This document shows, piece after piece, positions 5,761-61,689 of a stretch of DNA of 64,000 nucleotides. Positions within the stretch are counted from its first letter, which is position 1, and every line of letters begins with the position of its first letter. Source of the stretch: Myxococcales bacterium (GTDB taxonomy: Bacteria > Myxococcota_A > UBA9042); assembly GCA_009692425.1 (NCBI GenBank), contig SHZF01000002.1, positions 1 through 64,000 on the forward strand, in the 5' to 3' direction. The position numbers were made by a program, and so were the translations under genes. The notes under the pieces are model-generated. The model saw only the letters and a list, made by a program, of their open reading frames with translations, had not been told where the DNA came from and ran no database searches.

Positions 5761-7875
5761 CTAAGGCTGCTGTGCCGTCAGCACCTTGTCGATCGCCGGC
5801 GCGACGACCTTCGTCTTAACCCCATTGGGCCAGTGGACCGTCGCGTACGTGACCTTTGTCGCGGCGCCGAGCCCAAAGTGGACGATCCGCGCCGACTGGC
5901 TCAGGTACCCCTGCGCGCCCTCGAGCGCCCGCCAGTACGTGCGACCGCCGGCGCGGACTTCAACCCACGCGCCGAACGGATCGCGGGGCGCCTTGCCGGC
6001 AAGCTTGACGTCGAGCCAATGCCGCCCCGCCGGCAGGTCGTTGCGGTACAAGTGCACGCGGTGCTGCCAGGTCAAGACGGCCAGGTCGAGGTCACCGTCT
6101 CGGTCGAAGTCGAGCGTCGCTGCGGCGCGCGCACTGGCCACGTACGTCGCCCCGGCCAACTTCTCGGTCGGAACGGTCGCGCCATCGGCTGGTGGGTCCA
6201 GCGCCACCTGTGACTGGCGCTCGACCATGCCCGCGCCGAGGTTCACCAGCATCAGGTTCGGCGTGTAGGGATACGGATTCGACATGCCACTGATGACGAA
6301 GATGTCGAGGTCCCCGTCGTTGTCGAAGTCCGCCGGCACGTGCCCCCACGGCTGGTACGTCTCCGTCTTCCACTGCAACGCCTGCTCACTGTACTTCCCG
6401 CCCGGCTGATGCATCCACAACGAGTTGCCGTACAGCGGGCCACTTGGATTGTCGCCCAGGCCCATGCTCGGGCCCTTGTTGCCTTTGTAGCGGACACCGG
6501 TCTCGATTTTCGCCAGCGGCAGCTTCGGGTCGGCCCACATGTCAGAGTGCATGTCGGTCAGCAGGCAGTCGGGAAAGCCGTTGTTGTCGAAGTCCGCGCA
6601 CGTCACGCCGACGGCGCCATACGAGAGCTGCGGCATCAGGGTCGCACTCTCGTCCTTGAAGTGGCCGGTCCCGTCGTTGATGAGCGTGGCGGAGTGCCCG
6701 AACGCGTCGGCGAGCACGAGGTCCGGGTCGCCGTCGCGGTCGAGGTCAGAAGCGGCGAGGTCGGTAAACGAGCGCGTCAGCTCTGCGGCGGTGGCGCCGA
6801 CCATGCCGTGGGTCTTCGACACGTCCACGTAGGCAAAGCCTTTGCCGGGGCCCTGGTTGCGCAGCATCAGGGTCGGGTCGGCGGTCGAGGCCATCATCAT
6901 CGACATGATCGACTTGCCGACGTAGTGGGCCGGGCAGTCCGGCGATGCTGCCACCAGCGTCTCTTCGGTGTACTTGAGGTTGCCGACCACGACGATGTCC
7001 AGAAAACCGTCACGGTCGAAATCCACGAAAGTCGCGCTGCCGAAGTGCCCCTTGAACCCGGCGCCCGCCGCCACCGCCACGTCGGTAAACGTGCCGTCGT
7101 CGTTCTGACGCAACAGCGCACACGGCCGCCGCACGAACGTCACGAAGAAATCCGTGTCGCCGTCGTTGTCGTAGTCGCCGTGCGTGACCGCCGCGCGCAC
7201 GCCGTCGTCCAGGGTCTTCAGCAGCGCGGACTTGTCGTCGAATTTGCCGTCGCCCTTGCCGAGGTAGTAGCCCGTCGGCCCGCATTGGTTCAGCAACAGC
7301 ATGTCGTCGTGGCCGTCGCCGTTGAAGTCGCCCGTCGCCATGCCGGAGCCGTGCTCGTACAAGGCCGAAACGCCGTTGTTCTCGACGCGCTTGTGCTGCC
7401 ACGGTACGCCGCCGGCCAGCGCAACCTCCGTGAACTTCCAGCCCGCCGCCTCGCCGAGCAGGGGAACGGCCGGGTCGTCGGGGAGCGTGACCCCGTCGCC
7501 GCCATCGCCATCGCCGGCCGCAGCGTCCGCCGCGGTGTCGGTCGCCGTGTCGGTCGCGGTGTCACCGGGTGCAACAGTCCCATCGGCGGCAGCGTCTGCG
7601 ACCGCAACCGTGGCCACGTCAGCCAGGGCGACGGCGTCGACGGGGCCACTGTCGCTCCCGGCCGCTTCCGCCACGCCGTCCTTGGCCGCGCCACCGAGCG
7701 TGTCGGCAACACCATCCTGCGCCGCGTCGGTCGCCTTGGCGGCCAGCTTTTCGGTTTCGCCGCACGCCACCGCCTGAAGCAAACCAACGACGAGCAAGAC
7801 CGCCCGCAGTCCGCGCCGCCACCAACCCGCCGCAGGGATGCCGTCCAAGCTGCCGGCCGGTGTGGATGTCATCAT
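5761..7875 (-). CDS. FG-GAP/VCBS repeat lipoprotein with C-terminal ASPIC/UnbV domain
   Basis: A 704-residue putative lipoprotein: hydrophobic N-terminus ending AVAC, then about 130 residues of Ala/Asp/Thr-rich linker, then a propeller of FG-GAP/VCBS blades carrying Dx[DN]xDG calcium loops (DFNGDGHDD, DYDNDGDTD, DFDRDGFLD, DLDRDGDPD, DFDNDGDLD). It ends in an ASPIC/UnbV-type domain (WVEVRAGGRTYW to VHWPNGVKTK), as in the CRTAC1 family. The start at ATG 7875 (ATGATG) follows GGGAGGGG at good spacing. Its closest relative in the window is the divergent gene at 8095-10230, with long near-identical stretches. Likely surface-exposed; the ligand is unknown. Confidence 0.88.
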   Translation of the reverse strand: MMTSTPAGSLDGIPAAGWWRRGLRAVLLVVGLLQAVACGETEKLAAKATDAAQDGVADTLGGAAKDGVAEAAGSDSGPVDAVALADVATVAVADAAADGTVAPGDTATDTATDTAADAAAGDGDGGDGVTLPDDPAVPLLGEAAGWKFTEVALAGGVPWQHKRVENNGVSALYEHGSGMATGDFNGDGHDDMLLLNQCGPTGYYLGKGDGKFDDKSALLKTLDDGVRAAVTHGDYDNDGDTDFFVTFVRRPCALLRQNDDGTFTDVAVAAGAGFKGHFGSATFVDFDRDGFLDIVVVGNLKYTEETLVAASPDCPAHYVGKSIMSMMMASTADPTLMLRNQGPGKGFAYVDVSKTHGMVGATAAELTRSFTDLAASDLDRDGDPDLVLADAFGHSATLINDGTGHFKDESATLMPQLSYGAVGVTCADFDNNGFPDCLLTDMHSDMWADPKLPLAKIETGVRYKGNKGPSMGLGDNPSGPLYGNSLWMHQPGGKYSEQALQWKTETYQPWGHVPADFDNDGDLDIFVISGMSNPYPYTPNLMLVNLGAGMVERQSQVALDPPADGATVPTEKLAGATYVASARAAATLDFDRDGDLDLAVLTWQHRVHLYRNDLPAGRHWLDVKLAGKAPRDPFGAWVEVRAGGRTYWRALEGAQGYLSQSARIVHFGLGAATKVTYATVHWPNGVKTKVVAPAIDKVLTAQQP

Positions 7876-7903
7876 GAACCCCTCCCCCCAAACACCCGCC
7901 GAA

Positions 7904-7932
7904 ACGCTACACGGTGGGTTCTGGGGCGTCAA
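7904..7932 (-). promoter_or_regulatory. Candidate promoter for the 5761-7875 gene
   Basis: On the reverse strand TTGACG, 17 bp, TAGCGT. Transcription would start near 7897, about 22 bases before the ATG. This is among the best matches in the window. Confidence 0.6.
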
Positions 7933-7991: not shown

Positions 7992-8094
7992 CGTTCGCCG
8001 CGGCGTGATCCGGGCGTTCTGGAGCTGAGAAGGCGGGCTGGCGCCGCTTGCCGGGATTCTGGATCAAGACTTCCTTGCGCAATTGGGGCAATTG

Positions 8095-10230
8095 ATGAAA
8101 ACGACCGTGAAACCGCTGCCTTTTCTCTTGATTTTCCTGATGGCGTGGCCACTTGGCGGGTGCGGGAACGACCCGGTCAGCAGCGACGCCAACGCGCCCG
8201 GAGACGCGGCGGCAAGCGGGGATGCGACGGCGGGCGAGACCGCGGTGAAGGACGGCGCCGGGCCGGCTGACTCCGACGCAGCCACCGACGGGGCGACCGC
8301 GGATGCGACGGCGGCCGACACTGCCAGAGCGACCGATGGTGCCGGCCCGAGCGACGCCGACGTCGGGGTCGACGTCACGGATGGTGCTGTGGAGGTTGAA
8401 GCCGACATCGCGGCTGCCGACGATGCCGCGCCCGATGCGGTGCCGACGCCTGACGTGGCGGACGCGAAAGACCTGACGGATGCAGGGGATGGGGCGACCT
8501 TGCCGGGTGATGCGACGGTGGCGCTGCTTGGCGAGCCGGTTGGCTGGAAGTTCACCGAGGTCGCGCTGGCCGCTGGTATCCCTTGGAAACACAACCGCAT
8601 CGAGATCGGCGGGGCGTCGACCTTGTATGAGCACGGCTCCGGCATGGCGGCGGGCGACTTCAACGGCGATGGCCACGCGGACATGCTGCTGTTGAACCAG
8701 TGCGGACCGACCGGCTACTACTTGGGCAAGGCCAATGGCACGTTTTCCGATCAGTCCAAACTGCTGCAGCAACTCGACGACGGCGTACGCGTCCAGGTGG
8801 CCCACGGCGACTACGACAACGACGGCGACACCGACTTCTTCGTGACCTTTGTGCGCCGACCCTGCGCCCTTTTGCGCCAGAACGCCGACGGCAGTTTCAC
8901 CGACGTGGCCGCTGCGGCCGGAGTTGCTGCGGTGGGCCATTACGGCGGCACGACCTTCGTCGATTTCGATCGCGATGGCTGGCTCGACCTGCTGGTAGCC
9001 GGCAACATCAAGTACACTGACGAGAAACTCATCCCTGCGAGCGCGACCTGCAGCGCGTACTATGCCGCCAGCCCCGCGACGATGATGGACCTCACCAAGA
9101 AGCCCCCCGTCGACCCGAGCCTGATGTACCGAAACCTGGGGCCAGGCAAGGGCTTTGCCTTCACCAACGTCGCCAAGACCCACGGCATGCCGGGTGCCAA
9201 CGACTTGGCCCCGGTGCGCGGCTTCACGGACGTTACAATGTCGGACTTCGACCGCGACGGCGACCCGGACCTCACGCTGACCGACGCGTTTGGTGTGTCA
9301 GCGGTGCTCGTGAACGACGGCACGGGCCACTTCAAGGACGAGATTGCGACGTTGATTCCGCAGTTCTCCTACGGGGCGACCAATGCGGTCTGGGCGGACT
9401 ACGACAACGACGGCTTCGCCGACCTGTTTCTGGCCGACATGCATTCCGACATGTGGCACAACCCGAAGCTGCCCTACGAGCAGATCGGACCGGGCCTGCG
9501 CTACAAAGGCTACCTGGGCCCGATGGCGGGAGTCGGCGACAACCCGACCGGGCCGCTCTACGGCAACAGCCTGTGGTTGCACGAGGCTGTCGGAAAATAC
9601 AAAGAAGTTGCGATGACTTGGAAGGCCGAGACCCACCAGCCCTGGGGTGTCCAGCCAGCGGACTTCGACAATGACGGCGACGTCGACCTGTTCGTGGCGA
9701 CCGGCATGGGCAACCCGTACCTCTATGTGGCAAATCGACTGCTCGTCAACCTCGGCGACCATTTCGTAGACCGCCAGGCCCAGGTCGGCCTCGACCCGCC
9801 GGCTGACGGTGCCCTCGACCCGGCCCAGATCGTCGGTGCCGAGGCGTACATTGCGAGTGCGCGGACCTCGGTGGCGCTGGACTACGACAGCGATGGCGAC
9901 CTCGACCTCGCTGTCATGACGTACCACCACCGCATGCACCTGTACCGCAACGATTTACCGGTCGGACGGCACTGGCTGGAAGTCCACCTTGCCGGCAAGG
10001 CACCACGGGACCCGTTCGGGGCCTGGGTCGAGGTGCAAGCTGGTGGACACACGTACTGGCGTGCTCTCGACGGGGCGCGCGGCTACCTCAGTCAGGCCGG
10101 GCGCAGCGTGCACTTCGGCCTCGGCGCCGCGACCCAAATTGCCTATGTGTCGGTCTACTGGCCCGATGGGACGCAAACGAAAGTCTCGCAGCCTGCCATC
10201 GACAAGCCGCTGACCATCCAGCAGAAGTGA
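8095..10230 (+). CDS. FG-GAP/VCBS repeat lipoprotein with C-terminal ASPIC/UnbV domain
   Basis: A 711-residue putative lipoprotein and paralogue of the 5761-7875 product, transcribed away from it. The N-terminus MKTTVKP and a hydrophobic run end at the lipobox LGGC. An Asp/Ala-rich linker of about 120 residues follows, then FG-GAP/VCBS blades with calcium loops (DFNGDGHAD, DYDNDGDTD, DFDRDGWLD, DFDRDGDPD, DYDNDGFAD, DFDNDGDVD), then an ASPIC/UnbV C-terminus (WVEVQAGGHTYW to VYWPDGTQTK). ATG 8095 is preferred over an in-frame TTG at 8083 because of the basic signal-peptide start; the Shine-Dalgarno sequence is weak. Propeller text aligns closely with its paralogue while the linkers differ in sequence, as expected for a spacer. 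Confidence 0.88.
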   Translation: MKTTVKPLPFLLIFLMAWPLGGCGNDPVSSDANAPGDAAASGDATAGETAVKDGAGPADSDAATDGATADATAADTARATDGAGPSDADVGVDVTDGAVEVEADIAAADDAAPDAVPTPDVADAKDLTDAGDGATLPGDATVALLGEPVGWKFTEVALAAGIPWKHNRIEIGGASTLYEHGSGMAAGDFNGDGHADMLLLNQCGPTGYYLGKANGTFSDQSKLLQQLDDGVRVQVAHGDYDNDGDTDFFVTFVRRPCALLRQNADGSFTDVAAAAGVAAVGHYGGTTFVDFDRDGWLDLLVAGNIKYTDEKLIPASATCSAYYAASPATMMDLTKKPPVDPSLMYRNLGPGKGFAFTNVAKTHGMPGANDLAPVRGFTDVTMSDFDRDGDPDLTLTDAFGVSAVLVNDGTGHFKDEIATLIPQFSYGATNAVWADYDNDGFADLFLADMHSDMWHNPKLPYEQIGPGLRYKGYLGPMAGVGDNPTGPLYGNSLWLHEAVGKYKEVAMTWKAETHQPWGVQPADFDNDGDVDLFVATGMGNPYLYVANRLLVNLGDHFVDRQAQVGLDPPADGALDPAQIVGAEAYIASARTSVALDYDSDGDLDLAVMTYHHRMHLYRNDLPVGRHWLEVHLAGKAPRDPFGAWVEVQAGGHTYWRALDGARGYLSQAGRSVHFGLGAATQIAYVSVYWPDGTQTKVSQPAIDKPLTIQQK

Positions 10231-10267: not shown

Positions 10268-12346
10268 CTACTTCCAGACTGCGGTCTTCGTCGCGCCGGC
10301 TGCCACGTCGCCGACCAGGGTCTTCGTGCCGTCGGGCCAGTGTACCGTGACATCGGTCGCCTGGTCCGCTCCGCCCAGGCCGAAGTGCGCGAACCGGGTC
10401 GATGAGCCACCCCAGCCGCCGCTGCCGTTGAGCCAGCGCTTTCGCACGCTTCCGTTCACCTTGGCCGTCACGCGCGTGCCGAGCGCATCGCGGTTGAGCC
10501 CCTTGCCTTCGACGACGACGACCATGTACTTGCCCTGTTTGGCCAAGTCGTTGCGCAGGATGCGGACGCGCGCGGACGGCTTCATGCTCGGACCCGGCCG
10601 CGTCTGCACGACATCGAGGTCACCGTCTGCGTCGAGGTCGATCAGGCGGTGATCGACGAACAGGCCGTGCGCGTACGGGCCGTGGGGCAGGGCCGTCGCG
10701 ACGAGCGCCGGGCCCTTGCCGTGGGTGTACAGCACGTCGATGCTGGGCTTGCTGGAAAACGGGTTCTGCTTGCCCATCGTCAAGCCGCACGACGACACGA
10801 ACTCCGCCAATTGCTCGGCCGTCATGTTGACCGAGATGCCGAGCAGCAGGTCGTCGAGCCCGTCGAGGTCGAGGTCGGCGATGAGCGGCGACCAGGCGCT
10901 CGCACCCCAACTCGGCCCCCAGACGCCCAGCGTGCCGCCGCCGTCGAGGAACTGGGCAGGCTTGCCCGGCTTGGCCGCAGCCTGGAGGTAAGCCGGCGTC
11001 GGACCCGCGTCGGCCAGCACGAGGTCGAACAGGCCGTCGCCGTTGAGGTCGCCCACGGCCCACCCCATCGCGGCGGCCCACGGGTGAAAGCCGATGTCGA
11101 CGTCGTGCACGGCGAACTTGCCGCCCAGGTTGCGCAACAGCCGATGGCCGTCGTTTTCGTCGCCGGCGAGGATGTCCATCTTGCCGTCTTCGTCGACATC
11201 GAGCGCCAGGACGACGGTCTGGTTGCCGCCGGTGGGCACCTGCCAGGCGTCGGTGACATCGGCCATGGGAAGCTTGGAACCCTGGATCAGGACGCGGTCG
11301 TTCATCTTTTTCGTCGGAGGAAACACCGCAAAACTGCAGACGAGATCGCTTTCGGTGTACTGACAGCTCAGCCCACTGCACGGCGGCGGCTCGAATCCCG
11401 CGCCAATGTACAAGTCGAGGTCACCGTCGCCGTCGAGGTCGGCCGGCTGCACGCTGAAGGCGGCGTAGTCGGTGATGTAGGGCATCCATTCCTTCGTCTT
11501 GTCGACGAAGCCGCCCTTGCCGTTGCCGCCGTAGACAGACGCGCCGGAGTAGCCGCCAAAGATCAGGTCCGGCTTCGCGTCGCCGTCCATGTCCACGGCC
11601 GAACAGCCGAAACTGGCCGACGTCAGGCTCGTGTCCAGGTCCGTCATGACATGGACCGGGGCGCCGGGGCCCAGCAGCGCTGCGTGCACCGTCGCCTTGG
11701 TGTTCACGCGCTCGATGACGACGAAGTCTTCGCGGCCGTTGCCGTCAAAGTCGGCGACCGCGACGCAGTATTCGTGCCACTTTGCCGGGTCGACCCCGTA
11801 TTGCGCGGTGACGTCGGTGAACGCGGCGAGCGGCAGGGTCTCCGGGTCGACCGATGGCGAGGTCGGGGCCGTGGCGACGTCGGGGGCGTCCACGGCAGCG
11901 TCCGGTCCGGCGAGGTCGTCCGGCACGGGAGCATCGGGCGCATCCCCGCCAACTGCCGCAGCTTCGGTGTCGGCCGAGGCCACGTCGGAGTCGGGCGCTG
12001 CGCCGGTCGAAGAATCCGCCTCGGCCACCCCGTCTGGCACCGGAGCGATGGTTGCGGTCGTGTCTGCGGCCGTGTCGGCCAATGTGGTGTCGGCAAGCGA
12101 GGGGAGTCCCGGGTCGGCGCCAGCGGCAGGGGCCGCGTCCAGGGTGCCAACAGCCGCTTCGATGAATTCGCCTGCCTCCGCCCCGGGGTCTGCCAGCGTG
12201 GTTGGCGCGTCCAGTCCGCGCCCGGCCGCATCCGGAGTCGCCGCAACCGATCCGCCTCCATTGCCACAGGCCATCGTCGCAAGGACCAAGCCGGTGGCGA
12301 GCACGCAGCCCAGCCAGCCCACAGACTCCTCTCCAGCATCGCTCAC
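10268..12346 (-). CDS. FG-GAP/VCBS repeat lipoprotein with ASPIC/UnbV domain
   Basis: About 692 residues. A hydrophobic N-terminus ends TMAC (lipobox-like), followed by about 140 residues of Ala/Asp/Pro-rich linker, an FG-GAP/VCBS propeller (DFDGNGRED, DMDGDAKPD, DLDGDGDLD, DVDEDGKMD, DLNGDGLFD, DLDLDGLDD, DLDADGDLD) and an ASPIC/UnbV-like C-terminus (RVTAKVNGSVRKRW to VHWPDGTKT). It belongs to the same subfamily as the products at 52031-54157 and 59551-61689. The GTG at 12346 overlaps the stop of the Kazal-like gene as GTGA, suggesting coupled translation. A second in-frame GTG at 12322 is preceded by GGAGAGGAG and may be the true start, leaving a very short signal peptide. Confidence 0.85.
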   Translation of the reverse strand: MSDAGEESVGWLGCVLATGLVLATMACGNGGGSVAATPDAAGRGLDAPTTLADPGAEAGEFIEAAVGTLDAAPAAGADPGLPSLADTTLADTAADTTATIAPVPDGVAEADSSTGAAPDSDVASADTEAAAVGGDAPDAPVPDDLAGPDAAVDAPDVATAPTSPSVDPETLPLAAFTDVTAQYGVDPAKWHEYCVAVADFDGNGREDFVVIERVNTKATVHAALLGPGAPVHVMTDLDTSLTSASFGCSAVDMDGDAKPDLIFGGYSGASVYGGNGKGGFVDKTKEWMPYITDYAAFSVQPADLDGDGDLDLYIGAGFEPPPCSGLSCQYTESDLVCSFAVFPPTKKMNDRVLIQGSKLPMADVTDAWQVPTGGNQTVVLALDVDEDGKMDILAGDENDGHRLLRNLGGKFAVHDVDIGFHPWAAAMGWAVGDLNGDGLFDLVLADAGPTPAYLQAAAKPGKPAQFLDGGGTLGVWGPSWGASAWSPLIADLDLDGLDDLLLGISVNMTAEQLAEFVSSCGLTMGKQNPFSSKPSIDVLYTHGKGPALVATALPHGPYAHGLFVDHRLIDLDADGDLDVVQTRPGPSMKPSARVRILRNDLAKQGKYMVVVVEGKGLNRDALGTRVTAKVNGSVRKRWLNGSGGWGGSSTRFAHFGLGGADQATDVTVHWPDGTKTLVGDVAAGATKTAVWK

Positions 12347-14424
12347 GGCAGGTAGCACTTGCACGTGCATGGGTCCTTTTTCTGGGCAAGCGCGCACGAC
12401 TGCGCCGCAGGGCACGTCCAGCCCGGGCACAGCGTACACTTTGCGTTGAGGCAACCTTCGCCGGGCTGACACTGTTTCGCCGTCGCGCACACCGCGCCGC
12501 TGCCACCGCCGGTGCAGGGCGTCGCGGCCTTCGTGTTCATGAGCGCCTTGGTCGCCTCGCACACGTTGAGGTACGACTTGTCGTTGCAGCCGCACACAGG
12601 CGCGAGCGTCGCGGCACAACTCGACGGCGTCACGGCGCAGGTGCCGACGCCGCTGCATGTGTTGGCCGCCGCCCCCTTGCACCAGTACCCTTGGTAGCAC
12701 GGCACGCCGCCGATCGAGCACGGCTGGCCCGCCAACGGGCACGTGCCCGTCTTGGCCACGTTGACGCCCGCGACCGCCGCCGAACAGCCCGACGCATAGT
12801 GCTTGCCGTCGCACCCGCACACGGTTGCGTTCGGGGGCTGGCAGATCGTTGGCTTGAGCGCACACGTGCCCGCCCCGCCGCACGCATTGGCAAGGCTCGC
12901 CTTGCAATACTCGTTCGCTTGGCATGCGACCGCGCCGCCGACCGTGCACGGACCGCCGCCGCCCGTCGGGCACGCGCCTTCTGCCTTGACGTTCTGGCCC
13001 GCGACCGCCGCCTGGCACGCGTTGCCGTAGGACTTGCTGTCGCAGCCGCACACCGGCTTGAAGACCAGCGGGCACACCTGGCCCTGCACGGCGCACTTGC
13101 CGGCGCCGCCGCATTGGTATGCCAGGTTCGCCTTGCAATACTGGCCCGCCGAGCAGACAGCCGGGCCGCCGACCACGCAGTTCGTGGGCACGGGTGGGCA
13201 CGGTCCCGCGGCTTTTTTCGCGACCCCTGCCGCCAGACGCTGGCAGTCGCTCGCGTACGTTTTCGCATTGCAGCCGCACACCTGCGACTTGCCGTCGGCG
13301 CCGGGGCACGGCACCGGCGGGGCGACGACGCACTTGCCCGGCACGTCGGCCCCGCAACTGGCGATGTCGCAGGCCTGGCCAGCCGGACACTTGATGCCCG
13401 CGAAGCCCCCACAGAGGCCGCTGACCGGGCAGGCGTTGCTGGTCGACAGGTTGCTGCCCGCCAGCGCCGCCGCACACGCGTTGCCGTACGTCTTGTCGTC
13501 GCAGCCGCACACGGGCTGGCTGATGGCCGGGCAGAGTTGGGGCTTGGTGGCGCACGTCCCGCTGCCCCCGCAGACTCCGACGGCAGGCGCGGCGCAGTAT
13601 TCGCCGGCAGCGCAGGCCTTGGCATCACCCAACGTGCACTCCTTGGGCTTGGGTTTGCACTTCCCCTCCGAAGCCTTGGCAGCGCCCGCCTCGATGCGCG
13701 CGCAGTCGTTCGGGTACGTGACACTGTTGCAACCGCACACGTCCGCCCCGCCCGCCGAGCACAGCGCCGGCAGGCTGACACACATGCCGCCGATATCGGC
13801 ACCGCAGCCAACGACGTCGCAGTGCTTGCCGACAGGGCACTTCAGTTCAATCTTGCCGGCGCAGGCGATGGCCGGTTCGGAATCCGGAGTCGTTGCCGCA
13901 TCGGACCCCGCCGCATCGACGGCGTCGGACGGCACGTCGCTGTCGTCCGAACTGGCGGTACCGACGTCGGCAGGGTCGCTCCCATCGTTCACGTTGCCAG
14001 AGTCGCCGAGCGCCGCCCCGACGTCGGCTGGGCCCGCCTCGCCGGTAGCCGTCGTCCCATCGGCGAACTCCCCGCCGTCGAGTGGCGCGACCGGGTCGAC
14101 ATCGGACGCTGCCAGGTCGCTGCCGCCGGGAGCGCTGCCGGCGTCCAGCGGACCCCCTGCGCCGGGGTCTGCCGTCGCCGAGTCGGCGGCCTTGGCGTCG
14201 GTGCTCTTGGCGTCATTGGCCTTTGCATCCGCGGCCGCCCTGCTGGCAGCGGCGCTGTCTGCCCCGCTGACATCGAGGGAGAACTGTGGGGCCAGCGGGT
14301 CTGGCACCGCAGGCTCGCCGCAGGCACTGGCTGCAACGCACCCCGCCCACCACGCGAGCGCGAGCCTCGTTGGGCGTCTCGGACAGAAGTGCGAGAGGGC
14401 CGCTGGTTCCCGTCGCGTCGCCAT
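12343..14424 (-). CDS. Lipoprotein with six Kazal-like cysteine-rich modules
   Basis: A 693-residue putative lipoprotein: basic N-terminus, hydrophobic stretch and lipobox ASAC, then about 170 residues of Asp/Ala/Ser-rich linker. Then come six modules, each carrying the Kazal core pattern VCGC[DN]xxxYxxxC (for example VCGCDDKTYGNAC, VCGCDSKSYGNAC, VCGCDGKHYASGC), alternating with a shorter CxxGxxC segment. A different Cys-rich tail ends KCYLP. Kazal domains are classically serine-protease inhibitors, so protection against proteases or protein binding is plausible; reactive-site residues are not conserved between modules as far as I can judge. ATG 14424 follows GGAAGG. The stop overlaps the start of the downstream FG-GAP lipoprotein, so the two are probably made together. 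Confidence 0.85.
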   Translation of the reverse strand: MATRREPAALSHFCPRRPTRLALAWWAGCVAASACGEPAVPDPLAPQFSLDVSGADSAAASRAAADAKANDAKSTDAKAADSATADPGAGGPLDAGSAPGGSDLAASDVDPVAPLDGGEFADGTTATGEAGPADVGAALGDSGNVNDGSDPADVGTASSDDSDVPSDAVDAAGSDAATTPDSEPAIACAGKIELKCPVGKHCDVVGCGADIGGMCVSLPALCSAGGADVCGCNSVTYPNDCARIEAGAAKASEGKCKPKPKECTLGDAKACAAGEYCAAPAVGVCGGSGTCATKPQLCPAISQPVCGCDDKTYGNACAAALAGSNLSTSNACPVSGLCGGFAGIKCPAGQACDIASCGADVPGKCVVAPPVPCPGADGKSQVCGCNAKTYASDCQRLAAGVAKKAAGPCPPVPTNCVVGGPAVCSAGQYCKANLAYQCGGAGKCAVQGQVCPLVFKPVCGCDSKSYGNACQAAVAGQNVKAEGACPTGGGGPCTVGGAVACQANEYCKASLANACGGAGTCALKPTICQPPNATVCGCDGKHYASGCSAAVAGVNVAKTGTCPLAGQPCSIGGVPCYQGYWCKGAAANTCSGVGTCAVTPSSCAATLAPVCGCNDKSYLNVCEATKALMNTKAATPCTGGGSGAVCATAKQCQPGEGCLNAKCTLCPGWTCPAAQSCALAQKKDPCTCKCYLP

Positions 14425-52030: not shown

Positions 52031-54157
52031 CTACTTCCACACCGCCTTCAGCGTCGCCCCCGCCGCGCCGTCGCCCAGCACCGTCTTGGTGCCATCGGGC
52101 CACGTCACCGTGATGTCCGTCGCCTTGCCCGCCGCCCCGAGCCCGAAGTGGGCGAAACGGCTCGGTGTGCCCCCGAACGCGCCACTGCCAGCCAGCCACC
52201 GCGTGCGGGTGATGCCGCCGACCTTCGCCGAGACGATCGCGCCCAGCGCCGCCGTATTGCCGCCTTTGCCGGTGACGATGACGGTCAGGCTCGGCCCCTG
52301 CTTGGGCCAATCGTTGCGCAGGATGCGCACCAGCGACGTCGGGTTCATCGAAGCGCCGGGCCGCGTCTGCACAATGTCGAGGTCGCCGTCGCCGTCGAGG
52401 TCGATCGGCTGTTGGTCGACGAAGACGATGTGCGCGTACTTGCCCGGTGGCAGCGCGTACGGCTCGAAGCCCTTGCCGGTCAGGTTCAGGTAGAGCACGT
52501 CGATGCTCGTCTGGCCAATGAAGATGCCCTTGCCGCCGGGCTTCGGGCCCGCCGAACAGAATCCGGTGACGCTGGCGACCATCTCGGGGCTGAAGTTGAC
52601 GGACGCGCCAACGAGCAGGTCGTCGAGGCCGTTGTGGTCGAAGTCGGCGGCGATCGGCGACCACGCGCTGGAACCCCAGGTCGTTGACCACACGCCCCAC
52701 TTGCCGCCCTGGTCCTCGTACTGGACTGGCGTGCCGGGCTTGCCCTTGACTTGCATGTAGAGCGGCGTCGGTCCGCCCTCGGCGAGCACCAGATCGGCCT
52801 TGCCGTCGCTGTCAAAGTCGCCCGCCGTCCACCCCATCGAGCCGGAGTACTCATGCATGCCGATGGCCGTCGCCCACGACTGGAACGACTTGCCCGTGTT
52901 GTGCAGCAGTCGGCTGCTGCCGAAGTCGTCGCCGACCAGCACGTCCATCTTGCCGTCCGCATCGACATCGAGCGCCATCGCCACGGTCTGGCTGCCGCCA
53001 CCGGGCACGTTCCAGGCCTCGGTCGCATCGACGAGCGGCAGCGTGGGGCCATGAATGAGCACGCGATCCTGCAAGTCGTTGCTCATCGGCAGCGGGGGAT
53101 CGACCTTGCAGACGAGGTCCGTTGCCGTGAAGGCGCAGTCCAGCGACGCGCAATTGGGCGACTGAAAGCCGGACCCGATGTACAGGTCCAGGTCGCCGTC
53201 GCCGTCGAGGTCGGCGGGAACCATAGAAAACGCTGAGAAATCCATGACATATGGCATCCACTGGGCGGTCTTGTCGACGAAGCCGCCCTGGCCGTTGCCG
53301 AGGTAGAGCGCGACGCCCGAAAATCCGCCGAACAGGAGGTCGGGCATGCCGTCGGCGTTCATGTCGGCGGCCGTGCAGCCGAAGTTGGCCTGCAATACCG
53401 TGGTGTCGAACTTCGACGAGACGTGCGCGGGAGCACCCGGCCCGAGCAGCACCGCGTGGATGTTCGACTTGGAGCCGAGGACTTCGACCGCCGCGAAGTC
53501 CTGGCGGCCGTTGCCGTCGAAGTCGGCCACCGCGACGCAGGGCTGGTGGACGGCTTTCGGGTCGAAGCCGTACTCCGTCGTGACCTCGACCATTGGGGCC
53601 GGCGGCAGCGTCTTGGGCTCGATCTGCACGGGCGCCACGGCGTCGGCGTCTGCTGCGGACACGTCGGCTGGTGAGACTTCTGCGTCGAAGCCGGCGTCGG
53701 CGCCGTCGTTGGCGTCGCTGACCGTGCCGGATTCTGGGCTGTCGGCAGCCAGAGCGTTGGGCCCGATCGGCGTATCGACAAGGCTGGTCTCTGCGAGGTC
53801 AGGGCTGGCATCGACTTGCACCGTCGCCGTCACGGTGTCAGCCCCGTCGGCAGCCGGGGCCGCCGTGTCCGCGCGTTGGGGCAAGGCGCCGGGGTCAGCG
53901 GCAACATCTTCGAGGCCCGGCGGGCTGTCCGCGAGCCTTGCGGGCGCATCGGGCGGTGCGCCACCATCGAAGGCAACGTCCGTGGCGGCGGCCTTGGCGT
54001 CGAGGGCGTTCGCGGCGGGCGTAGGTGCAGGGTCGGGAGCCGTGCACCCGGCGGCCCAGCCAGCGGCTGCAGTCAGGACCAGGCCAGCGCTGCGCCGGTC
54101 GATGCCAGCCCAACGCGGGGCCGTCAAGGCGCAGGGAGTGCGTGCCTGTCGCGCCAT
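52031..54157 (-). CDS. FG-GAP/VCBS repeat lipoprotein with ASPIC/UnbV domain
   Basis: A 708-residue putative lipoprotein: basic N-terminus, hydrophobic run and lipobox AAGC, an Ala/Asp-rich linker of about 170 residues, then the propeller (DFDGNGRQD, DMNADGMPD, DLDGDGDLD, DVDADGKMD, DFDSDGKAD, DFDHNGLDD, DLDGDGDLD). The ASPIC/UnbV-like C-terminus runs AIVSAKVGGITRTRW to VTWPDGTKTVLG. It is a close paralogue of the products at 10268-12346 and 59551-61689, sharing text such as DGDLDIVQTRPG and the W-x-RNDLA/W segment. ATG 54157 has no clear Shine-Dalgarno sequence; the leader holds GACCAC repeats. Confidence 0.88.
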   Translation of the reverse strand: MARQARTPCALTAPRWAGIDRRSAGLVLTAAAGWAAGCTAPDPAPTPAANALDAKAAATDVAFDGGAPPDAPARLADSPPGLEDVAADPGALPQRADTAAPAADGADTVTATVQVDASPDLAETSLVDTPIGPNALAADSPESGTVSDANDGADAGFDAEVSPADVSAADADAVAPVQIEPKTLPPAPMVEVTTEYGFDPKAVHQPCVAVADFDGNGRQDFAAVEVLGSKSNIHAVLLGPGAPAHVSSKFDTTVLQANFGCTAADMNADGMPDLLFGGFSGVALYLGNGQGGFVDKTAQWMPYVMDFSAFSMVPADLDGDGDLDLYIGSGFQSPNCASLDCAFTATDLVCKVDPPLPMSNDLQDRVLIHGPTLPLVDATEAWNVPGGGSQTVAMALDVDADGKMDVLVGDDFGSSRLLHNTGKSFQSWATAIGMHEYSGSMGWTAGDFDSDGKADLVLAEGGPTPLYMQVKGKPGTPVQYEDQGGKWGVWSTTWGSSAWSPIAADFDHNGLDDLLVGASVNFSPEMVASVTGFCSAGPKPGGKGIFIGQTSIDVLYLNLTGKGFEPYALPPGKYAHIVFVDQQPIDLDGDGDLDIVQTRPGASMNPTSLVRILRNDWPKQGPSLTVIVTGKGGNTAALGAIVSAKVGGITRTRWLAGSGAFGGTPSRFAHFGLGAAGKATDITVTWPDGTKTVLGDGAAGATLKAVWK

Positions 54158-54167
54158 GTGCGGTCTC

Positions 54168-54191
54168 GTGGTCGTGGTCGTGGTCGTGGTC
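54168..54191 (-). repeat. Hexanucleotide repeat in the 5' leader of the 52031-54157 gene
   Basis: Four perfect copies of GTGGTC on the forward strand (GACCAC in the transcript), ten bases upstream of the start codon and inside the predicted untranslated leader, where a ribosome-binding site would normally be. Confidence 0.75.
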
Positions 54192-54248
54192 GGCTCGCGT
54201 GCGCCCGCCGGGTGCGCGGGTCTGCTGGAACCCGCCGCTTCGATTTGA

Positions 54249-54277
54249 ACCGTACGTGCGGCGCGCGGCGCTGGCAA
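54249..54277 (-). promoter_or_regulatory. Candidate promoter for the 52031-54157 gene
   Basis: Reverse strand TTGCCA, 17 bp, TACGGT, leaving a leader of about 85 bases that contains the hexamer repeat. Confidence 0.55.
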
Positions 54278-55172: not shown

Positions 55173-55278
55173 GTTGCAGTTCCGCGCCGGCACCGCGCCA
55201 CGGCGTGCAGGCCACGGCAGACATTGGTCGGCGCGGCTCGGGTATGCAAGGCCTAGGTGGACCGTTCCCTTCCCCGAG

Positions 55279-55307
55279 TTGCGCGGCCGCAGCGACCCCG
55301 CTAGCGT
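55279..55307 (+). promoter_or_regulatory. Candidate promoter for the membrane-anchored methyltransferase
   Basis: TTGCGC (55279-55284), 17 bp, TAGCGT (55302-55307), with a leader of about 26 bases to ATG 55340. Confidence 0.55.
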
Positions 55308-55339
55308 CACCGCGCGGCGGTGGCCGCGGTGGGCGACGG

Positions 55340-57109
55340 ATGGTGCGACGTGTTTCCCGGTGGCGAGGGGCGGCCGTCGTGGTAGTCGGCGCCGCACTGC
55401 TCGCCGTGTGGTCGGTACAACGGGACCGACGCCCCAGCCCGTCGCAACCGGTCGCGACGGAGACACCCCCGCAAACGGTGCCGCGCGCCGCTTGGGATCG
55501 AGCAGACCCGACGAAGGTGCGCTTCTCCGCCGCCGACTTCGGGCCGGACTTTCTCGATCGCTGGTGGCAGGCCCCGGCCGCAGATCGCCGGGCGCTGGCA
55601 CCGCTGCGCGAGGTGTTCCGACTGCGGCTGCGGCCCACGCTGGCGGCGGCACTGGCACGACCTGCCGAGGTTGGCGTGGACCCACGCCTCGCACAACGAC
55701 TCGCCGATGACGCCAACACATTCCTCGACGACGCGGGCCTCGTGGCGGCGCTGGCTGTCGCATACGGGGCCGAGGGCACCGCGGTCCCGCCCGACCTGGT
55801 CGCCCTGCTCACCCTGCCCGATGCGCGCCTGCTGCAATGGCTCGTGCTGGAGTTCGACGACCGAGGCCTGTTCGACCCAGGCCGCGCGTTTCGCCCTGGA
55901 CTCGACCGCGAGGCGCGGCGCTCGGTGAACGCGCTCGCGTTGGCGCCCTTGTTCGGCCCCGGTGCGCGCGTGCCCGGTCGTCTCCCCGCCGTCACGGGCC
56001 TTGCCGACGCCCTGACCGCTACAGACCTGCCCGACACCCCGACTGCCACGGGGCGCTCGCGCTTCGAGGGGCTCGCCGCCTCGCTGGCCGACGAAGAACG
56101 CCAGCGCTCCCTTGAACGGAAGCTCGCAGCCCTTGAGCACCCGGTGCGCCAACACCTGCTACAGCCCGCCGTCGTCGTGCGCGAGCTCGGCGTGCGACCC
56201 GGGATGGAAATCGTCGACATCGGTGCCGGTGGGGGTCACCTCAGCCTGCCGCTCGCGACGGCGCTGGCGGGGACGGGGCACGTGTGGGCGACCGACGTCG
56301 ACGAGCGCATGGTTGAGCTCCTCCAGCAGCGGGGCCGCGACCAAGGGCTGGCGGCGCTCAAGCCCGTGTCCGTGCAGCCGGGCAGCGACGTGTTCTACCG
56401 CGCCCACACTTTCGACCTCGCCGTGCTGTGCAGCGTGTACGAGTATCTCGGCGCGCCCGACTCGTTCTTTCACATGTTGGCGCCTACACTGCGGTCGGGC
56501 ACCGGCCGGCTCGCCATCTTGCAGGGGCATACCGCCGAGCGCTGGTTCCCGGCGGACTTCGACGCGCCGTTTCGCCATGCCGTGTTGAAGGCCACGGCGC
56601 CGCACGGGCCGGTGTGGCGGCGCCTGCAACCGTCGGTGCACGCCGCGCTGCTGGCGCTGGCTTCGACAGAGACGGTCAACGCCAGCGTGCAGGATGCGCT
56701 GGCCGACGATTTCACCCGGATGCTCGACGACGCGCAACTGCTGGCCGACCTGGGCGCGTTTGCGGACCCGGCCGGCAAGCGACCCGACGCTTGGCTGGCG
56801 GCGCTCGGTCCGGACGATTGGCGGCTCGTGCAGTGGATTCGCGGCACATTCGGCGAGGCGTTGATCCACGCGGGTACGGCACCGGCAGGCACCTTGGAGC
56901 GCCGCGCCCTGCGCAGCGTGAACTGGTTGGCGCTGCTGCCGTTCTTTCACGAGTCGCTGCCGCGTGAAGTCTACCCGCGCGGCATCTACCTGACGCCTGC
57001 CGGCATCGCGCGACGCATGGCGCGGGTCGGCTATCGGTTGGAGCGCACGGTCACGGCGCTGCCTGCACACGATTTTCTCGTGTTTGCGCCCGCTACGCCG
57101 GGGCGTTGA
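55340..57109 (+). CDS. Membrane-anchored protein with class I methyltransferase domain
   Basis: 589 residues. N-terminal MVRRVSRWRG and a single hydrophobic segment (AAVVVVGAALLAVW, about residues 11-24) anchor the rest, probably outside the cytoplasm, which is odd for a SAM enzyme. Residues about 65-215 are helical with Leu/Asp-rich repeats (RLLQWLVLEFDDRGLFDPG). A related motif recurs late (WRLVQWIRGTFGEALIHAG ... LRSVNWLALLPFFHE), suggesting an internal duplication around the methyltransferase core (MEIVDIGAGGGHLSLPLATAL, about 285-310; ATDVDERMVELL). No peptidoglycan or protein substrate domain is recognised. The Shine-Dalgarno sequence is weak. Confidence 0.78.
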   Translation: MVRRVSRWRGAAVVVVGAALLAVWSVQRDRRPSPSQPVATETPPQTVPRAAWDRADPTKVRFSAADFGPDFLDRWWQAPAADRRALAPLREVFRLRLRPTLAAALARPAEVGVDPRLAQRLADDANTFLDDAGLVAALAVAYGAEGTAVPPDLVALLTLPDARLLQWLVLEFDDRGLFDPGRAFRPGLDREARRSVNALALAPLFGPGARVPGRLPAVTGLADALTATDLPDTPTATGRSRFEGLAASLADEERQRSLERKLAALEHPVRQHLLQPAVVVRELGVRPGMEIVDIGAGGGHLSLPLATALAGTGHVWATDVDERMVELLQQRGRDQGLAALKPVSVQPGSDVFYRAHTFDLAVLCSVYEYLGAPDSFFHMLAPTLRSGTGRLAILQGHTAERWFPADFDAPFRHAVLKATAPHGPVWRRLQPSVHAALLALASTETVNASVQDALADDFTRMLDDAQLLADLGAFADPAGKRPDAWLAALGPDDWRLVQWIRGTFGEALIHAGTAPAGTLERRALRSVNWLALLPFFHESLPREVYPRGIYLTPAGIARRMARVGYRLERTVTALPAHDFLVFAPATPGR

Positions 57110-57130: not shown

Positions 57131-58540
57131 CTAGATGTCTGCGTGCAGCCCCATGTCGGCCTGCGGCCCCGCCGCCCGGCGCAGGACGCCGTTGCGCGGT
57201 TCGGACAGGCAGCGCTGGATTTCGGACGTGTAGAAGATGCCCGCGCCCTGCAGCATCGGCCGGCCATCGTTCCACGCCAGCCAGCCGCGGGCGCTGAGCG
57301 CCTCCCACCAAGGTGCAAAATCGCGGGCAAGATCGCGGCCAAATTCGCGGGCGTAGTCTGTCGCGTCGAGCCAGGGGCAGCCTTCGAGGCCCTTGAGCAC
57401 GTAGATCAGGCGTAAATCTATGGCATCAAACGTGAAAATCGCGTCGATGCAACTCGCGTCGGCGTCTGCCGGGGCACCGGCCGGCGTGGCGTTGCGCGCA
57501 TGGTATGCCTCGCGTCCGACGACGTTCTTGTACGTGTGGCCGGGTGCGGCGTGCGTGCCCGACAACAGTGAGTTGGCGCCGTACCCGATGCCCACCCGGT
57601 CGTTGTGCAGCACGTCGCGGTACATCTCGAGAAACTGGACCGGTGGCAGGTGGCTCCGGCAATAGTCCGTATACCCATCGGCCCGAAAACCGCGCGCGAG
57701 CAACGCGTCTCGCCCGCCAAGGAACGCATCGCGCGTGACCTCGACTGGCGGCAGTTCGTGCTTGCGTCGCGCGAACGCCGAGTCGCCACCCAACGTCAGC
57801 GGGTGGTTGACGATGCCATCGACGCCCCAATCGTCGAGCAGGGCGATGTCGGCCACGACGTCGGCGGGCGTCTGCTCGAACCAGCCGGTGATGAGGTCCA
57901 CCGAGCAGTGGATGCCGTGCTCGCGGCAGAACGTCGCCGTACGCTGGATGTGCTCGTGGCGCTGCGTGCGGCCGCTGTACGCGATCAGGTGCGACTGCAG
58001 GGTCTGGGCGCCGACACTGATGCGGTTGACGCCCACGGCCGCCAGTGCCTCGAGGCGTCCGGGCGTGAAAAGCCCCGGGGTCCCTTCGAAGGTAGTCTCG
58101 CAACTCTTTGGAATGTCGAACTTCTCGTGCAGACGGTCGAACACTTCGTGGATGCTCGCCTCGTGCAACACATTGGGCGTGCCGCCGCCGAAATAGAGCG
58201 TCTTCAACGTACGGCGGCCGAGTCGGGCGGCGACGCGGTCGAGTTCTGCGTAGAGGTCGGCGAGGTACGCCTCGACGTGGGCGTAAGAGCGGAAGTCCTC
58301 GCGCGCGAACAGGCAGAATCCGCAGGCTTCCGGCTCGGTCGGCGGGCAGAACGGGATGTGGACGTAGAAGTTGAGCGACCGCTGGGCGTCGACAGGTGCC
58401 AGGGCCTCAGACAAGGGTGGTTGGCGGCGCTGCCAGAAGCGCGGGCTCGGGTGCCCGTACTGGATTTTCGTGCCGGGCTCGCGCCCGATGTGCCGGTCCA
58501 AGTATTGGGAAACCCCTTCGGCGGTGGCGAGCAGCGGCAT
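57131..58540 (-). CDS. HemN/HemW-like radical SAM protein with atypical cysteine spacing
   Basis: 469 residues of the oxygen-independent coproporphyrinogen oxidase-like family: FYVHIPFC at the motif start, LYFGGGTPNVL, FEGTPGLFTPGRLEALAAVGVNRISVGAQTL, VDLITGWFEQT and HPLTLGGDS. The iron-sulfur motif is C65-x7-C73-x2-C76 (FCPPTEPEACGFC) instead of the family's Cx3Cx2C. An extended C-terminal domain runs to HADI. Start ATG 58540 (AAGGA five bases upstream) rather than 58561. Heme synthesis is possible, but HemN-like proteins also include HemW chaperones and methyltransferases; the cluster motif makes the role uncertain. Confidence 0.85.
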   Translation of the reverse strand: MPLLATAEGVSQYLDRHIGREPGTKIQYGHPSPRFWQRRQPPLSEALAPVDAQRSLNFYVHIPFCPPTEPEACGFCLFAREDFRSYAHVEAYLADLYAELDRVAARLGRRTLKTLYFGGGTPNVLHEASIHEVFDRLHEKFDIPKSCETTFEGTPGLFTPGRLEALAAVGVNRISVGAQTLQSHLIAYSGRTQRHEHIQRTATFCREHGIHCSVDLITGWFEQTPADVVADIALLDDWGVDGIVNHPLTLGGDSAFARRKHELPPVEVTRDAFLGGRDALLARGFRADGYTDYCRSHLPPVQFLEMYRDVLHNDRVGIGYGANSLLSGTHAAPGHTYKNVVGREAYHARNATPAGAPADADASCIDAIFTFDAIDLRLIYVLKGLEGCPWLDATDYAREFGRDLARDFAPWWEALSARGWLAWNDGRPMLQGAGIFYTSEIQRCLSEPRNGVLRRAAGPQADMGLHADI

Positions 58541-58605
58541 CCAGTTCCTTCGGGCGGCCATGCAGCGAGTGCAAGGGGGGCCGCCCCGCCCGCGGCGACA
58601 GCGCT

Positions 58606-58691: not shown

Positions 58692-59084
58692 CTAGCCGAT
58701 CCGCGCCACGCCCCAAGCGTCGAACACCGGATCGACGCTCACCAACACCGCCCCCAGCGCCAAAGCCTGGGCAGCCAGCATCCGGTCGAAGGGGTCGCGG
58801 TGGTCGCCCGGCAGCAGGCCGGCACGCAGTCCGTGTTCGGGCAGGACGGGCAGCCCCTCCACTTGGAGCGCGGCCAGGGCGGCGGGCAGGTCGAGGAGGC
58901 TGACGCCGCGCAACCGCAGCTTGCCGATGCGGACCTTGGTCGCGATTTCCCACATGGACGCCGCGCTGTAGTAGGCGGGCCCGTCACGGCGGTTGACCTC
59001 TGTGCGCGCCGTCATCGGCATTCGCTCGTTGCCTTCAAACATCCACACGATGATGTGCGTGTCGAACAACCGCGGCCGCGTCAC
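58692..59084 (-). CDS. vapC: VapC-type PIN-domain toxin
   Basis: A 130-residue PIN-domain ribonuclease toxin: N-terminal FDTHIIVWMFEGNERM (first acidic residue), SAASMWEIATKVRIGKLRLRG (central acidic residue), HRDPFDRMLAAQALALGAVLVSVDP (third and fourth acidic residues). The acidic cluster needed for metal-dependent RNA cleavage is present. GTG 59084 has GGAGGG just upstream and overlaps the antitoxin stop as GTGA; an in-frame GTG at 59096 is an alternative. It would be inhibited by the product of the gene directly upstream. Confidence 0.92.
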   Translation of the reverse strand: MTRPRLFDTHIIVWMFEGNERMPMTARTEVNRRDGPAYYSAASMWEIATKVRIGKLRLRGVSLLDLPAALAALQVEGLPVLPEHGLRAGLLPGDHRDPFDRMLAAQALALGAVLVSVDPVFDAWGVARIG

Positions 59085-59326
59085 TTGCCCTCCCACGCGT
59101 CCAGTTCTTCGTCGGGCAAGGGCTCCAGCAGGTCGCCTTCAACCAGCAGGATGCCTTTGAGCGCCCCGAACCTGCCCTGAACCACCGGCGCCGCGGGCTG
59201 CACGACGGGCACCAAGCGCGCCACGGGCACGGCGCCTCGCGCAATCACGATCTCCTCTCCGGCTTCGACGCGGGCCAGCAGGCGCGACAGGTGGGTCTTG
59301 GCGGCGTGGACGGTGACAATTTCCAT
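59081..59326 (-). CDS. vapB: Phd/VapB-type antitoxin
   Basis: An 81-residue antitoxin of the Phd/YefM family: VTVHAAKTHLSRLLARVEAGEEIVIARGAVPVARLVPV is the classic DNA-binding N-terminal domain, followed by a flexible toxin-binding tail rich in Leu and Glu (DLLEPLPDEELDAW). It should neutralise the overlapping VapC-type toxin and bind the operator. Its ATG lies seven bases after the -10 hexamer of the candidate promoter, so the message may be leaderless. Confidence 0.92.
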   Translation of the reverse strand: MEIVTVHAAKTHLSRLLARVEAGEEIVIARGAVPVARLVPVVQPAAPVVQGRFGALKGILLVEGDLLEPLPDEELDAWEGK

Positions 59327-59529: not shown

Positions 59530-59550
59530 GCTTCCGGGGAGGTGGCGCCG

Positions 59551-61689
59551 TTGCCTGGAGTATCGACGCACAGGGTGTGGGCAACCTCCAAGGCTCGCCA
59601 GCGACGCAGCCCGATCCCCGCCGCGGTCGCCCTCGCCGCGCTGGCCCTGGCGCCGCTCTCCTGTACGGACCCGACCCCGGCGTCGGCGCCTCGCGATGTC
59701 CTTGGTTTGCTCGACGTCGTCGCCGCGACCCTTGATGTCATGCCGGTGCTCGACGCCGCTACGCTGCGCAACGATGCCCCCGGTGGACCCGACAGCCCTC
59801 CGCCAACCGACGCCGCCAAGGATGGGAGCGCCAGCCTCGACAACTTCCCCGACAGGACCCCCGACCCCACAGACGTCGGCACCGCTGGCGAACTGCAGCT
59901 TGACACCGACGCCGCGACAGCGTCCGACATCGACAGTGCCGCCACACCCGATGCGCCGGACGCCCCAGCCGCCGACGCACCCGATTCAGCCGACGCACCC
60001 GATTCAGCCGACGCACCCGATTCAGCCGACGCAGATGTCGCCCCCGACGACCCGCCCGACACTGCCGTGGCGCCACCACCCAAGCCCATCGATCCTGCGA
60101 CCCTGCCGCTTGCCGCATTCACCGACGTGACGGCCGCGCTCGGCATCGACCCCACGCAACCCCACGGCATCTGCGCGGGCGCTGCCGACCTCGACGGCAA
60201 TGGGCGCGACGACCTCGTGGTGATCGAGCGCAGCGGCAAGCTGGCGACGATCCACGCGGTCCTGTTGAGCGCGGCAGCGCCCCAGCACGTGCTGACGCCC
60301 GTCGATACGACGCTGCTGCTGCCGACGATGGCGTGCACGCTCGTGGACCTCGACGGCGATGCCAAGCCCGACTTGCTGGTCGGCGGCCCGTCTGGCCTGG
60401 CGCTCTACCTCGGCACCGGCAAGGGTGGGTTCGTCGACAAGAGCGAGACGTGGCTGCCGTACATCCTCGATTTCTCGGCGTGGTCCATCGCGCCGGTAGA
60501 CCTCGACGGCGACGGCGACCTCGATCTGTTCATCGGTGCCGGCTCGCCGTCGCTCGACGCGGCCAACCCGGGCATCGGGCCGGCGTGCGGGTCGAACAAG
60601 TGTGGCTACGAAGGCAACGACTTCACGTGCGCGCTCGTCACCAAGGTGCCGAACAGCGACGACCTGCAGGACCGTGTGCTGATCCGCGGGGCCGAACTGC
60701 CGTACACCGACGCGACGAAGCAGTGGCAGGTGCCGCCCGGCGGCTTGCTGTCCGCGGCCCTGCCGATCGACATCGACCTCGACGGCAAGATGGACGTGTT
60801 CGTCACCGACGACTTCGGGGGCCACCGCCTCCTGCACAACAAAGGCGCGACCTTCGACGTTCAGGACACCGGCATCGGCTTCTCTCCCTACGCGCACGGC
60901 ATGGGCTGGGGCGTGGGCGATTTCAACAGCGACGGGCTGGCCGACCTCGTGATGGCCGACGTTGGCCCCAACCCAATGTATGTACAGGTGAAGGCTACGC
61001 CGGGCAATCCCGTCGAGTTCGAGGACCACGGCGGCGCACTCGGCATCTGGGGGCCGACCTGGAGCGCCAGCACGTGGTCGCCGCTGGTCGCCGATTTCGA
61101 CCTCGACGGGCGCGACGACCTGTTCATGGGCAGCGCGCTGAACACGACGCCAGAGAAACTGCCGGCGGTCACAGCGGGTTGTACGGTGGCGGGCAAGCTG
61201 CCTTATGGCGGCCACCCGAACATTGACCTGCTGTTCTTGCGGTTGCCGCAGGGAGGGTTCACGGCGCAGCGCTTCGAGACGGGGCCGCACTCGCACTTCA
61301 TGGCGATTTCGCAGGCGCTGGTGGACCTCGATGACGACGGCGACCTCGACATCGTGCAATCGCGCCCGGGGCCGAGCCTGACCTCGCGCATCCGCGTGCT
61401 GCGCAACGACCTGGCCAAGGGCGGCGGACACGCGAAGATCGTGCTGCAGGGCAAGAAGGGGAATACAGACGCCTTGGGCGCGGTGGTGAGCGCCAAGGTG
61501 GGCGGCCAGTTGCGCACGCGCTGGCTGAGTGGCACCGGCGGTTTCGGCGCGAACCGGAGCCGCATCGCGGAGTTCGGCCTCGGCACCGCGGGCAAGGCCA
61601 CGGACGTGAGCGTGAAATGGCCCGACGGCGCGAAGACCGTTGTGGGCGAGCTCGTCGCCGGGACGACGAAAACGCTCGTGTGGCCATAG
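59551..61689 (+). CDS. FG-GAP/VCBS repeat lipoprotein with ASPIC/UnbV domain
   Basis: A 712-residue putative lipoprotein: hydrophobic N-terminus ending APLSC (lipobox), then an Ala/Asp/Pro linker containing a DSADAP repeat, FG-GAP/VCBS blades (DLDGNGRDD, DLDGDAKPD, DLDGDGDLD, DIDLDGKMD, DFNSDGLAD, DFDLDGRDD, DLDDDGDLD) and an ASPIC/UnbV-type end (VVSAKVGGQLRTRW to VKWPDGAKTVVG). It is the third member of the subfamily also found at 10268 and 52031. The start is TTG 59551 or GTG 59542: the SD GGGGAGG sits eight bases before TTG 59551 but overlaps GTG 59542. The PQQ-type dehydrogenase gene follows 23 bases downstream, probably in the same operon. Confidence 0.86.
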   Translation: MPGVSTHRVWATSKARQRRSPIPAAVALAALALAPLSCTDPTPASAPRDVLGLLDVVAATLDVMPVLDAATLRNDAPGGPDSPPPTDAAKDGSASLDNFPDRTPDPTDVGTAGELQLDTDAATASDIDSAATPDAPDAPAADAPDSADAPDSADAPDSADADVAPDDPPDTAVAPPPKPIDPATLPLAAFTDVTAALGIDPTQPHGICAGAADLDGNGRDDLVVIERSGKLATIHAVLLSAAAPQHVLTPVDTTLLLPTMACTLVDLDGDAKPDLLVGGPSGLALYLGTGKGGFVDKSETWLPYILDFSAWSIAPVDLDGDGDLDLFIGAGSPSLDAANPGIGPACGSNKCGYEGNDFTCALVTKVPNSDDLQDRVLIRGAELPYTDATKQWQVPPGGLLSAALPIDIDLDGKMDVFVTDDFGGHRLLHNKGATFDVQDTGIGFSPYAHGMGWGVGDFNSDGLADLVMADVGPNPMYVQVKATPGNPVEFEDHGGALGIWGPTWSASTWSPLVADFDLDGRDDLFMGSALNTTPEKLPAVTAGCTVAGKLPYGGHPNIDLLFLRLPQGGFTAQRFETGPHSHFMAISQALVDLDDDGDLDIVQSRPGPSLTSRIRVLRNDLAKGGGHAKIVLQGKKGNTDALGAVVSAKVGGQLRTRWLSGTGGFGANRSRIAEFGLGTAGKATDVSVKWPDGAKTVVGELVAGTTKTLVWP
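59983..60036 (+). repeat. 18-bp tandem repeat in a lipoprotein linker
   Basis: Three copies (59983, 60001, 60019) of GATTCAGCCGACGCACCC encoding DSADAP; the first two are identical. It lies in the linker of the FG-GAP lipoprotein. Confidence 0.85.

Follow-up and report, generated by a model that had tools for sequence, protein, structure and literature searches.

In polycyclopropane pathways the stand-alone cyclopropanases are similar to HemN (PMC13389473, excerpt). According to this excerpt a Cx7CxxC motif, which was modelled as coordinating a 4Fe-4S cluster, is invariant in Jaw5, Pfl2 and Log2; in Jaw5 it comprises C68, C76 and C79. The context described for them is an iterative PKS in Streptomyces. 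Within the class C enzymes Jaw5 forms a cluster of its own (Wilkens et al. 2021, cited after an excerpt of PMC10320005). Also HemN-like are the class C methylases NocN and NosN (9p2u; PMC12871812, excerpt), which carry a CX3CX2C motif and act on RiPP substrates, as well as C10P, which is partnered by the methyltransferase C10Q (PMC6050322, excerpt). E. coli HemN itself (1olt) carries CX3CX2CXC. Outside of this group, the unusual Cx7Cx2C spacing is described for PoyC, a B12-dependent class B methyltransferase of another subfamily (PMC5682303 and PMC11285071, excerpts).

Here we analysed a HemN-like gene with a CX7CX2C motif within a 64,000 nucleotide long stretch of DNA (in the following called the window), whose phylum was labelled Myxococcota via the relative L047. 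Its product belongs to a separate CX7CX2C clade of radical SAM enzymes with a predicted HemN fold, for which a Jaw5-type cyclopropanase is the nearest functional match in print; we regard it as an even call that the complete reading, with the chemistry proposed below, holds. The novelty is limited, because the motif of Jaw5-type enzymes is already in the literature. New are the spread of this motif to other phyla, a clade signature and settings without an iterative PKS.

The gene and its predicted product

The gene is encoded on the reverse strand (57131-58540). A longer in-frame ORF (57131-58561, reverse strand) would provide 476 aa; however, in the orthologues L046 and L047 the initial Met aligns with Met8 (58540), such that Met8 is probably the true start. 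Residue numbers below refer to the longer ORF unless stated otherwise. Pfam recognised PF04055 Radical_SAM with 52.7 bits, above the curated cut-off of 29.5. The best NCBIfam model was that of the STM4012 family (NF006067), for which 153.2 bits were obtained compared to a cut-off of 380. STM4012 proteins differ from the window protein by a CX3CX2C motif and another operon, and a search for literature on STM4012 as a radical SAM protein returned nothing. Scores far below the respective cut-offs were also obtained for HutW/ChuW (TIGR04107, 121.3 bits versus 400), HemZ (118 bits), HemW (TIGR00539, 116 bits versus 205.4) and HemN (TIGR00538, 90.3 bits versus 324.95).

An AlphaFold2 model, calculated from six alignment rows, reached a mean pLDDT of 75.9 and a pTM of 0.80. 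Its top match in Foldseek was HemN 1olt (E 1.5e-23, TM 0.69/0.75). A profile of the clade covered residues 48-446 of HemN (E 5.6e-46). As modelled, the window protein is a full-length HemN-fold radical SAM protein. The statement of the preliminary description that it closely follows HemN/HemW was too loose, with STM4012 as the best-scoring family and the HemN and HemW models below cut-off.

Cluster motif and clade signature

The C-x7-C-x2-C motif (58313-58348, reverse strand) is formed by C72 (codon 58348-58346), C80 (58324-58322) and C83 (58315-58313), with the conserved T75 and P77 lying in the insert. In Met8 numbering these cysteines are C65, C73 and C76, just as originally noted. At the motif the window translation reads YVHIPFC-PPTEPEA-CGFCLF. 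Aligning homologues, which had been proposed as a check of the insertion, revealed that the spacing and the three cysteines are kept in 9/9 clade members. In comparison, CX3CX2C was found in all 56 other HemN-like proteins compared, i.e. in the other 46 rows of our tree and in 10 proteins that had been filtered out of it.

Two sequence features separate the clade from the CX3CX2C rows of the tree. The pattern P-[FY]-C-x2-T-x-P-x2-C-G-[FY]-C-L-F, in which the insert carries T at +3 and P at +5 and is followed by CG[FY]CLF, is common to 9/9 clade members and occurs in 0/46 of the CX3CX2C proteins. Closer to the N-terminus a clade-specific motif K32-x5-P38-S-P-x2-W43 is encoded (58433-58468, reverse strand). 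K-x5-PSP-x2-W was present in 10/10 CX7 rows, which represent nine distinct proteins as L048 and L083 are identical, and in 0/46 CX3 rows.

The CX7CX2C proteins were also grouped by phylogeny. In a maximum-likelihood tree of 56 rows a single label change sufficed to place the CX7CX2C rows (support 99/96), and this grouping was matched in 0/500 label shuffles; since the tree is unrooted, calling the CX7CX2C side a clade presupposes a root outside of it. Judged from sequence, the CX7CX2C subclass is real and conserved. The earlier suggestion of a functional subclass thereby gains support from the conserved insert with its own signature, the single clade and the separate N-terminal motif. Given their conservation and the published excerpts on Jaw5 and PoyC, the three cysteines are likely to bind a [4Fe-4S] cluster. 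The CX7CX2C cluster loop is a stable clade marker within the HemN-like enzymes, in phyla beyond the iterative-PKS pathways of Streptomyces.

Clade members and distribution

The nine distinct members include, besides the window protein, three from the same family as the window genome (G021, which is L046; G014, which is L047; and G012), one from another family of the phylum (G054), one from a Gemmatimonadetes MAG (G377, which is L048), two from Deinococcus plasmids (L064 and L065) and one that was found when sampling the phylum of the Acinetobacter genome G675 (G871, which is L094). In this order their identities to the window protein are 70, 69, 62, 58, 51, 31, 30 and 32%, such that a close group (51-70%) and a distant group (about 31%) can be distinguished.

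Carriers were rare in every sample, where samples overlap and E thresholds differ among them. Reading the motif in the fetched loci provided 4/52 carriers in the first set of relatives, including the window genome, and the same four were found among 52 genomes of its class. The phylum sample contained 5/377 carriers at E<=1e-45, and the phylum of G377 1/298. For the phylum of G675 eight proteins passed E<=1e-50, seven of which had CX3CX2C, leaving 1/398 carriers. The single carriers in the family (1/200) and the class (1/369) of G871 were both G871 itself. Such a scattered occurrence in several phyla is suggestive of horizontal transfer.

A scan of genome contigs provided four relatives, three of which belong to the clade, while the seven distant relatives on viral contigs all had CX3CX2C. 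Among phages 36 records gave distant matches, none of them with at least 80% query coverage. Three queries against a plasmid collection, in which we also sought relatives of Jaw5, matched 385, 294 and 372 records; in terms of identity and coverage, the two Deinococcus records alone were conspicuous. Of 12 fetched plasmid loci in which the motif was read, two had CX7 and 10 had CX3.

Active site and proposed chemistry

Using pairwise alignment we compared the clade with NocN, for which the roles of the SAM-II-contacting and catalytic residues are given in PMC12871812 (excerpt). The contacts Y34, R153 and D196 correspond to Y66, R180 and D222 and are kept in 9/9 members, and Y96 corresponds to Y or F at position 123. 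Not kept are Arg230, Ser225, which is V or T in the clade, and the catalytic Tyr276, which is H, D, N or E. The comparison with HemN gave retained equivalents of Y56, E145, R184 and D209, with R184 and E145 corresponding to R198 and E159 in 9/9 members. Both R184 and E145 are functionally important in HemN. Overall, the two-SAM pocket looks mostly intact and the substrate side different. Two-SAM methylene chemistry appears likely for the clade, because it retains the majority of the residues by which NocN contacts SAM-II.

We consider the window enzyme a probable methylene transferase of the Jaw5-like kind that uses two SAM molecules and may be a cyclopropanase. In such a mechanism the three cysteines on the longer loop would hold the [4Fe-4S] cluster and SAM-I would be cleaved to give a 5'-deoxyadenosyl radical. 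A methylene radical would then add to a C=C bond of the substrate, such that a cyclopropane or a methyl group is formed. The protein shows the feature that marks the Jaw5 type in the excerpt of PMC13389473, namely a Cx7CxxC motif that is invariant and sits at almost the same position of a HemN-like protein. Spacing and fold suggest a kinship of the clade with Jaw5. The spacing by itself is no proof of it, because the B12-dependent PoyC also has CX7CX2C, probably by convergence. The loss of the equivalents of NocN Ser225 and Tyr276 speaks against the Jaw5-like reading, as does the model at residues 72-91 including the cluster loop, where the pLDDT is <50 and too weak to judge the loop.

The neighbouring genes of the Deinococcus relatives fit acyl-ACP chemistry. 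On the Deinococcus plasmids (L064:393-8843 and L065:1-8842) the enzyme gene is part of a natural-product-like cluster, together with genes for thioester reductase, class III aminotransferase, GNAT, KAS III and ACP, to which Deinococcus QL22 adds an adenylation-domain protein. An ACP-bound acyl chain is probably the substrate of these relatives. In contrast to the Streptomyces pathways of Jaw5, Pfl2 and Log2, as far as these are described in the excerpt, no PKS, ACP or KAS genes were seen near the window copy among those window genes that were scanned with Pfam (part of the genes), which speaks against the Jaw5-like reading. The enzyme of G871 adjoins an alpha/beta hydrolase gene. If the proposed chemistry holds, the clade would contain untapped cyclopropanases or methylene transferases, and the automatic label 'coproporphyrinogen-III oxidase family' in Deinococcus QL22 would be misleading.

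Methyltransferase neighbours

An alternative would be a cyclopropanase or methylase with two components, as in C10P/C10Q, for which a class I methyltransferase is an obligatory partner. A class I SAM methyltransferase gene indeed adjoins the enzyme gene in G054 and G377, and the two methyltransferases are 36% identical to each other. This arrangement, which recalls C10P as described in the excerpt of PMC6050322, speaks for the Jaw5-like reading as well. Besides the radical SAM enzyme, the Gemmatimonadetes locus (L048:686-9407) encodes ATP-sulfurylase/APS kinase, a sulfotransferase and two class I methyltransferases. The lineage of the window lacks such a neighbour. At E<=1e-20 no close match to the methyltransferases was found in G000, G012 and G014; the match in G021 was weak and no stronger than in some non-carriers, and the methyltransferase of the window (55205-57109) scores weakly and has a hydrophobic N-terminal stretch. 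An obligatory two-component system is thus unlikely, and for the lineage of the window we rejected the rule that the enzyme comes with a methyltransferase partner. The gene at 55205-57109, which encodes a methyltransferase-domain protein, is located on the forward strand and convergent with the enzyme gene.

FG-GAP/ASPIC-UnbV neighbours

In the window the enzyme gene is located between genes for FG-GAP/ASPIC-UnbV proteins, two of which are linked to it as putative partners: a lipoprotein-like gene at 59542-61689 (forward strand) and a second gene at 52031-54277 (reverse strand). The enzyme may accordingly modify proteins, altering the adjacent secreted FG-GAP/ASPIC-UnbV proteins in the phylum of the window, an idea for which we see a rather low probability. 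The distance between the enzyme and an ASPIC domain is 0.17-3.0 kb in 5/5 carriers of this phylum, despite only 10-13 ASPIC hits per carrier genome at E<=0.001. The probability of such proximity by chance was 0.3-1.7% per genome, where one of the ten ASPIC hits of G014, being below the curated cut-off, was left out of the calculation. In G054 the genes for ASPIC, methyltransferase and radical SAM enzyme follow each other on one strand. This linkage statistic was, however, made after the pattern had been noticed, and four of the five carriers belong to one family, such that approximately two independent cases are left. Moreover, the window contig is enriched in ASPIC genes anyway, holding 7/11 of the hits of the genome, and an ASPIC domain scan, which outside of this phylum covered the carriers G377 and G871, found none in these two.

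The Jaw5-like reading and the ASPIC linkage can be combined. A methylene transferase with the Jaw5 motif could have been recruited outside polyketide synthesis in the phylum of the window, where it would modify, or act together with, the secreted FG-GAP/ASPIC-UnbV proteins or a lipid carried by them. We consider this combination even less probable than a protein-modifying enzyme as such; if true, it would tie a chemistry to the FG-GAP/ASPIC-UnbV domain. Genes for secreted proteins of this type were seen at five places of the window, which in addition to the two given above are 5761-7932 (reverse strand), 8083-10230 (forward strand) and 10268-13555 (reverse strand).

Heme-pathway reading and sequence integrity

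A heme-pathway enzyme or chaperone like HemN, HemW or HutW/ChuW would share the fold, and among the named rows of the tree HutW comes closest (94/89), though on a very long branch (3.05) that makes its placement unsure. The motifs GPRYTSYP, NFQGYTT and HNxxYW, which are diagnostic according to the excerpt of PMC10320005, as well as CX3CX2CXC are missing in 9/9 clade members. In addition to the low scores of the HemN and HemW models, the genome encodes a separate HemW (235 bits versus a cut-off of 205). We therefore rejected the window enzyme as HemN or HemW and consider any heme-pathway role very improbable. The same genome encodes a further HemN-like protein with CX3CX2C.

An artefact of sequencing or assembly is practically excluded, and so is gene decay, since the frame is intact, the core is conserved and the insertion, which might have been unique to the window sequence, recurs with identical spacing in orthologues from independent genomes. 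Directly upstream of the enzyme gene two overlapping small ORFs (58692-59096 and 59081-59326, both reverse strand) have, by their translation, the look of a PIN-type toxin/antitoxin pair.
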